Below are positions 53,135-53,202 of a stretch of DNA of 53,202 nucleotides, in pieces. Location of the stretch: positions 1 to 53,202 of the IMG/VR virus record IMGVR_UViG_3300009788_000121. One strand, given 5' to 3'. The first letter of the stretch is position 1, and each line of letters begins with the position of its first letter. A program made the position numbers and the translations under genes. The notes beneath the pieces are model-generated. The model searched no databases. It had not been told where the DNA came from and saw nothing but the letters and a program-made list of their open reading frames with translations. The DNA is from a virus.

Positions 53135-53200
53135 TATAGTTGTATGAAGTTTTGTTAGTAGGTGTTTTGGACGCGGGTTCGACTCCCGCCACCTCCACCA
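53135..53200 (+). ncRNA. ssrA: tmRNA-like 3' end (acceptor piece)
   Basis: TTTTGGACGCGGGTTCGACT, then CCCGCC-ACCTCCACCA, closely follows the conserved 3' terminus of bacterial tmRNA (GGACGCGGGTTC..CCCGCCAxCTCCACCA). The 5' tRNA-like half and tag frame are not upstream: a gene ends only 1 bp before this segment. If real, the molecule is split or permuted, with its coding piece right of the window. A tRNA using GAAGGTG at 53114 as 5' acceptor is a weaker alternative. Confidence 0.55.
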
Positions 53201-53202
53201 CA

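Follow-up and report, generated by a model that had tools for sequence, protein, structure and literature searches.

A very probable permuted tmRNA gene, cut off after its acceptor half, at the end of a T5-like phage contig

The DNA analysed here (the window) is an entire virus record of 53,202 bases, and its right end is very probably the acceptor half of a circularly permuted, two-piece tmRNA gene that lies in the tRNA array of a T5-like phage. Judged from related loci, the coding half almost certainly lies just past the end of the contig. In two-piece tmRNA systems the precursor is cut by the enzymes that mature tRNAs and alanine is loaded onto the acceptor piece, which together with SmpB and the coding piece rescues stalled ribosomes.

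Permuted tmRNAs are already known in phages and the window piece adds one more. A total of 53 two-piece structures have been described among 133 unique phage tmRNAs (PMC9004378), and RF04321, the model of the permuted form, was built in another study (PMC11915505). The original prediction listed alphaproteobacteria and cyanobacteria as the groups with two-piece tmRNAs; both belong on the list, which is incomplete as betaproteobacteria and phages have them too (PMC9004378, PMC11915505). In the literature searched, no report was found of a permuted tmRNA in the phage group of the window. The finding would mean that an unclassified group of T5-like phages has a two-piece ribosome-rescue RNA of its own, encoded within a tRNA array.

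The acceptor piece at the right end of the window

The CCA-terminated acceptor piece, which is the 3' half of the permuted gene, covers positions 53138 to 53200 and is recognised from its match to RF04321 and its similarity to two other loci, G035 and L010. Near its start is the strand GTTGTATGAAG (53139-53149), shared with the viral motif contigs discussed below, which would pair with the coding piece in the two-piece tmRNA. The T arm follows at 53173-53189 (stem GCGGG/CCCGC, loop TTCGACT), as seen in the sequence and in the alignments to RF00023 and RF04321, and is joined by the 3' strand of the acceptor stem, CACCTCC (53190-53196), which is assigned from the pairing in eight loci with the same strand. 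CCA occupies 53198-53200, within the RF04321 match. These features are on the plus strand, as are the two bases at 53201-53202, which would be the first of the spacer between the acceptor and coding halves and are the last of the 53202-base record.

When the whole window was searched with cmscan, RF04321 (tmRNA_permuted) gave 52.2 bits at 53138-53202 against a threshold of 47. The match covers model positions 1-65 of 213, being truncated on its 3' side by the contig end, and has an E-value of 2e-7 for the whole window and 4.5e-9 for the last 1.2 kb. The predicted tmRNA 3' end at the right edge is thus confirmed, with T arm, acceptor strand and CCA all in place, and the permuted Rfam model proposed as a check exceeds its threshold despite the truncation. 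The piece has the acceptor-half features and, preceding them, the joining-helix strand by which a member of RF04321 is known. Over the last 67 nt it is 82% identical to the permuted tmRNA of the T5-like contig G035, which is complete, and over 70 nt it is 84% identical to L010, in which the acceptor piece likewise begins right where an upstream ORF ends. ARAGORN, also proposed as a check, called neither a tmRNA nor a tRNA at the right end; this program easily overlooks tmRNA fragments where a contig stops. The downstream partner of CACCTCC is predicted to be GG(G/A)GGTG, past the contig end.

An overlapping contig was sought in IMG/VR by exact match of the last bases of the contig and none was found. 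IMG/VR has two further contigs of this phage, G021 and G022, which are 100% identical to the window over the compared overlap and stop at window positions 41855 and 41061, short of the tmRNA region. The contig probably breaks at the tmRNA because an acceptor core of ~33 bases is common to many tmRNA genes.

Standard or permuted form

In an ordinary one-piece tmRNA the 5' domain and tag would precede the acceptor end, and RF00023, the standard model, does fit the 3' end well: over the last 70 bases only it scores 58.7 bits (model positions 307-374), where RF04321 scores 52.2. Fragment-only scores were rejected as a test of tmRNA form since both models fit, and the form was therefore decided by comparison with other loci. 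When the upstream sequence is included, the RF00023 score drops to 36.1 bits, under the threshold of 47, because neither a tag nor a 5' domain is present upstream. The 141 bases before the acceptor piece are instead a 46-codon ORF (46 aa; 52994-53134, plus strand) with the Shine-Dalgarno sequence AGGAG, which stops 3 nt before the acceptor piece, as expected from the original prediction of a coding gene immediately upstream; its product had no Pfam match. If this ORF is a real gene, an ordinary one-piece tmRNA is ruled out. The absence of an upstream 5' half, also predicted, extends to the whole 53,202-base record according to pattern searches for the 5' domain: with up to 3 mismatches allowed, GGRGGTGNNNNGGNTTCGACRGG had 0 matches, and ATGGTTTCGACAGGG had a single match with 3 mismatches, against 0.81 expected by chance. 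A one-piece gene is extremely improbable, and within the limits of the models this reading is already refuted.

The comparison that points to the permuted form is based on an exact search of IMG/VR for GTTGTATGAAG-N18-GGACGCGGGTTCGA, a motif that is blind to all downstream sequence. The motif is present in 84 viral contigs, which include near-identical sequences and are not independent. ARAGORN called a permuted tmRNA in 79 of these loci and a standard tmRNA in 0. Two of the five without a call, L231 and L285, have a coding half; in the other three, L247, L272 and L294, the sequence runs out within 130 nt. A coding half was found no more than 1.5 kb downstream in 80 of the 84 loci, and wherever there is enough sequence, the T5-like relatives included, it is always downstream of the acceptor half. 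The acceptor strands of the two halves form 7 of 7 pairs in 79 of these 80 loci, which represent six acceptor types, whereas strands taken from loci of different acceptor type paired completely in 1.1% of the control combinations; this covariation identifies the two halves as partners. In the loci with CACCTCC (n = 8) the downstream partner is GGGGGTG, with 7/7 pairs.

The contrast set was made up of 22 bacterial genomes in which the acceptor end, TTGGACGCGGGTTCGACTCCCGCCACCTCCACCA, is identical. ARAGORN found a standard tmRNA in 18 of the 22 and a permuted one in 0, and GTTGTATG was absent from the 40 nt upstream of the acceptor end in all 22. By these comparisons, GTTGTATGAAG is a signature of the permuted phage form of tmRNA, and a short diagnostic motif can recognise this form even from a truncated acceptor half. 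The predicted permuted or two-piece tmRNA with its coding half beyond the window is supported, as this is the sole arrangement among the 84 viral loci and none is standard; for the window itself we infer it.

The phage and its relatives

The large terminase (TerL) of the window is 46-49% identical (over 94-99%) to those of Demerecviridae-type isolates, the head protein is 32-38% identical to those of T5-like phages, and the portal and connector proteins also match T5-like phages. Judged by its terminase, portal and head protein, the window phage is T5-like. T5-like phages are a lytic group.

A total of 80 IMG/VR loci were fetched as TerL relatives, and 22 of their contigs were searched with RF04321. 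Complete permuted tmRNAs were found in four of the 22, the T5-like contigs G035 (122 bits), G034 (121), G042 (116) and G037 (81), whose TerL proteins are 51-54% identical to that of the window. The tmRNA of G035, set in a tRNA array, has the same ATAT(A/G)GTTGTATGAAG start as the window piece, and its tag is ANESVYALAA. In the nearest TerL relatives (60-80% identity), no tmRNA over the cut-off was found in the short contigs available. A 472-aa protein near the right end of the window has relatives on one contig, and no tRNA or tmRNA genes were found there. ThyX relatives proved too widespread to be of use.

The tRNA array lies at 41786-52952 on the plus strand, with 16 ARAGORN calls (ARAGORN, cmscan) and the tmRNA piece at its end. 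Its member nearest upstream of the tmRNA piece is a tRNA-Lys(CTT) at 52878-52952, plus strand, called by ARAGORN and scored at 51 bits by RF00005. Three further tRNA-like genes had RF00005 matches and no ARAGORN call (41531-41604, 38.6 bits; 42632-42703, 27.5 bits; 52358-52434, 27.2 bits), the last of them with a long insert, and a tRNA at 52277-52351 has an irregular anticodon loop and is labelled tRNA-??? by ARAGORN.

Alternative explanations

Short matches to the 3' end of ssrA are plentiful among temperate phages in the phage collection and a contig could stop at a phage-host junction, so that the window end might be an attachment-site fragment, left by a temperate phage that integrates in the host ssrA and carries only the 3' end of the gene. 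Such a fragment would go with an integrase and a temperate lifestyle; no integrase (PF00589) was found in the window, which is part of the genome only, and the terminase and head genes are those of the lytic T5-like group. The piece has the whole of the joining-helix strand seen in permuted viral tmRNAs, which is missing from the bacterial genes with the same acceptor end, and the site ends a phage tRNA array. We consider an attachment-site fragment very unlikely. A similarly small chance is given to an RNA that consists of the tRNA-like domain only, as in mycobacteriophage DS6A, a phage example that the window resembles in that only this domain is visible; a molecule similar to the DS6A RNA strongly inhibits tmRNA (PMC4131195). 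The coding half is, however, present in every viral locus with the helix strand and enough downstream sequence, and the window stops at a contig end, where the lack of a coding half is not an observation. Decay into a pseudogene or remnant of a permuted tmRNA is likewise highly improbable. The distance from GTTGTATGAAG to GGAC is 19 bases in the window piece as compared to 18 in all 84 motif loci, one base off, and some tRNA genes of the array are weak or irregular, but no damage is seen in the acceptor strand, T arm or CCA, and the sequence of the helix strand is conserved.

Comparison with known two-piece tmRNAs

The window piece shares the T arm, CACCTCC, CCA and the GTTGTA strand at its model position with permuted tmRNAs of the RF04321 and RF01850 (beta_tmRNA) type, and the acceptor-strand covariation of this type is seen in relatives of the window; it differs in being the acceptor half only, with one extra base between the helix strand and GGAC. 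The permuted ssrA genes of the marine phages Melnitz and Mosig (PMC9004378) are likewise phage-encoded and show no sign of integration, but these are T4-like myophages with a gene of the alphaproteobacterial type, whereas the window phage is T5-like and known from the acceptor half alone. Alcaligenes phage vB_Af_QDWS595 (L001) shares 35 identical bases over the acceptor core and has a tRNA array around its gene, although it belongs to the Schitoviridae, a family other than that of the window phage. Its record, OK149171.2, contains a complete permuted tmRNA at locus positions 3943-4319 (RF04321, 111 bits; permuted by ARAGORN) with the tag ANDNVYAAAA, which is unannotated in the record. The tmRNA of DS6A (PMC4131195) is a tRNA-like domain only and just this domain is seen in the window, but the window is cut by the contig end and its relatives with enough sequence all have the coding half.

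Proposed mechanism

The gene would be transcribed in the order acceptor half, spacer and coding half with the tag reading frame. Excision of the spacer by the enzymes of tRNA end maturation would then give a two-piece tmRNA, with the two pieces held together by the acceptor stem and by a helix of GTTGTATG with its partner. The alanine-charged tmRNA would, together with SmpB, rescue ribosomes stalled during infection; no SmpB was found in the window and therefore that of the host would be used. A degradation tag specified by the phage would be added to the rescued products. It has been suggested that phages benefit because the translation machinery they hijack is maintained or because host proteins are selectively tagged (PMC9004378).

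Protein genes in the spacers of related permuted tmRNAs

The spacers were surveyed in 131 permuted genes for which both halves were found, covering seven acceptor pairs and giving 84 distinct spacers. A single ORF fills at least 80% of the spacer in 24 of the 33 distinct spacers of at least 110 nt. Most ORF-bearing spacers start with TAAGGAA, a Shine-Dalgarno site, directly after CCA; the search partly favoured spacers with this start but did not select for ORFs. Many of the ORFs, which are found in L319, L336, L345, L285, L241, L238, L251, L299, L311, L313, L325, L331, L339, L340 and others, end one base short of the coding half's acceptor strand. The encoded proteins are largely unrelated to each other, and one is a thioredoxin with a CGPC motif (PF00085, E 4e-21). 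The 122-codon homologues of L241 and L285 differ at 8, 3 and 28 sites at codon positions one, two and three, a pattern seen in genes that are under selection at the protein level. The spacers of permuted tmRNAs have been noted to contain a tRNA gene and a repetitive element (PMC11915505), and no mention of protein genes in such spacers was found in that study or in the other literature searched.

It is very unlikely that a protein gene is present in the spacer of the window gene, which would continue past the contig end; this spacer starts with CA rather than TAAGGAA, and the window has no direct sign of a spacer gene. If there were one, the tmRNA precursor would double as a messenger RNA, a dual role for which no report was found in the literature searched. 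The occurrence of protein genes between the halves of permuted tmRNA genes merits a separate study.

GOLLD RNA and other elements in the window

A permuted tRNA at 40.8 kb had been put forward as support for a permuted tmRNA. This element is unrelated, as it is inside a GOLLD RNA (RF02032; 40668-41247, plus strand; 100.2 bits, E 1.6e-26, under the gathering score of 150) and therefore has no bearing on the tmRNA. GOLLD is a large phage RNA that is often near tRNA islands and sometimes has tRNAs in its linker (PMC12286853). In the window, model positions 108 and 109 are separated by an insert of ~135 nt. This contains a perfect T arm and acceptor strand (to 40783) and then, from 40843, an acceptor strand complementary to the first and a D arm. 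The order is that of a permuted tRNA, for which no anticodon was identified. The T5-like relatives G034, G037 and G042 have GOLLD above the threshold without this insert.

The region 23580-27964 contains five copies of an inverted-repeat element with the core GGGCACCCTCGCA-GGTGCGAGGGTGCCC (families D2 and D3), several of which adjoin a CGCTTGACA motif.
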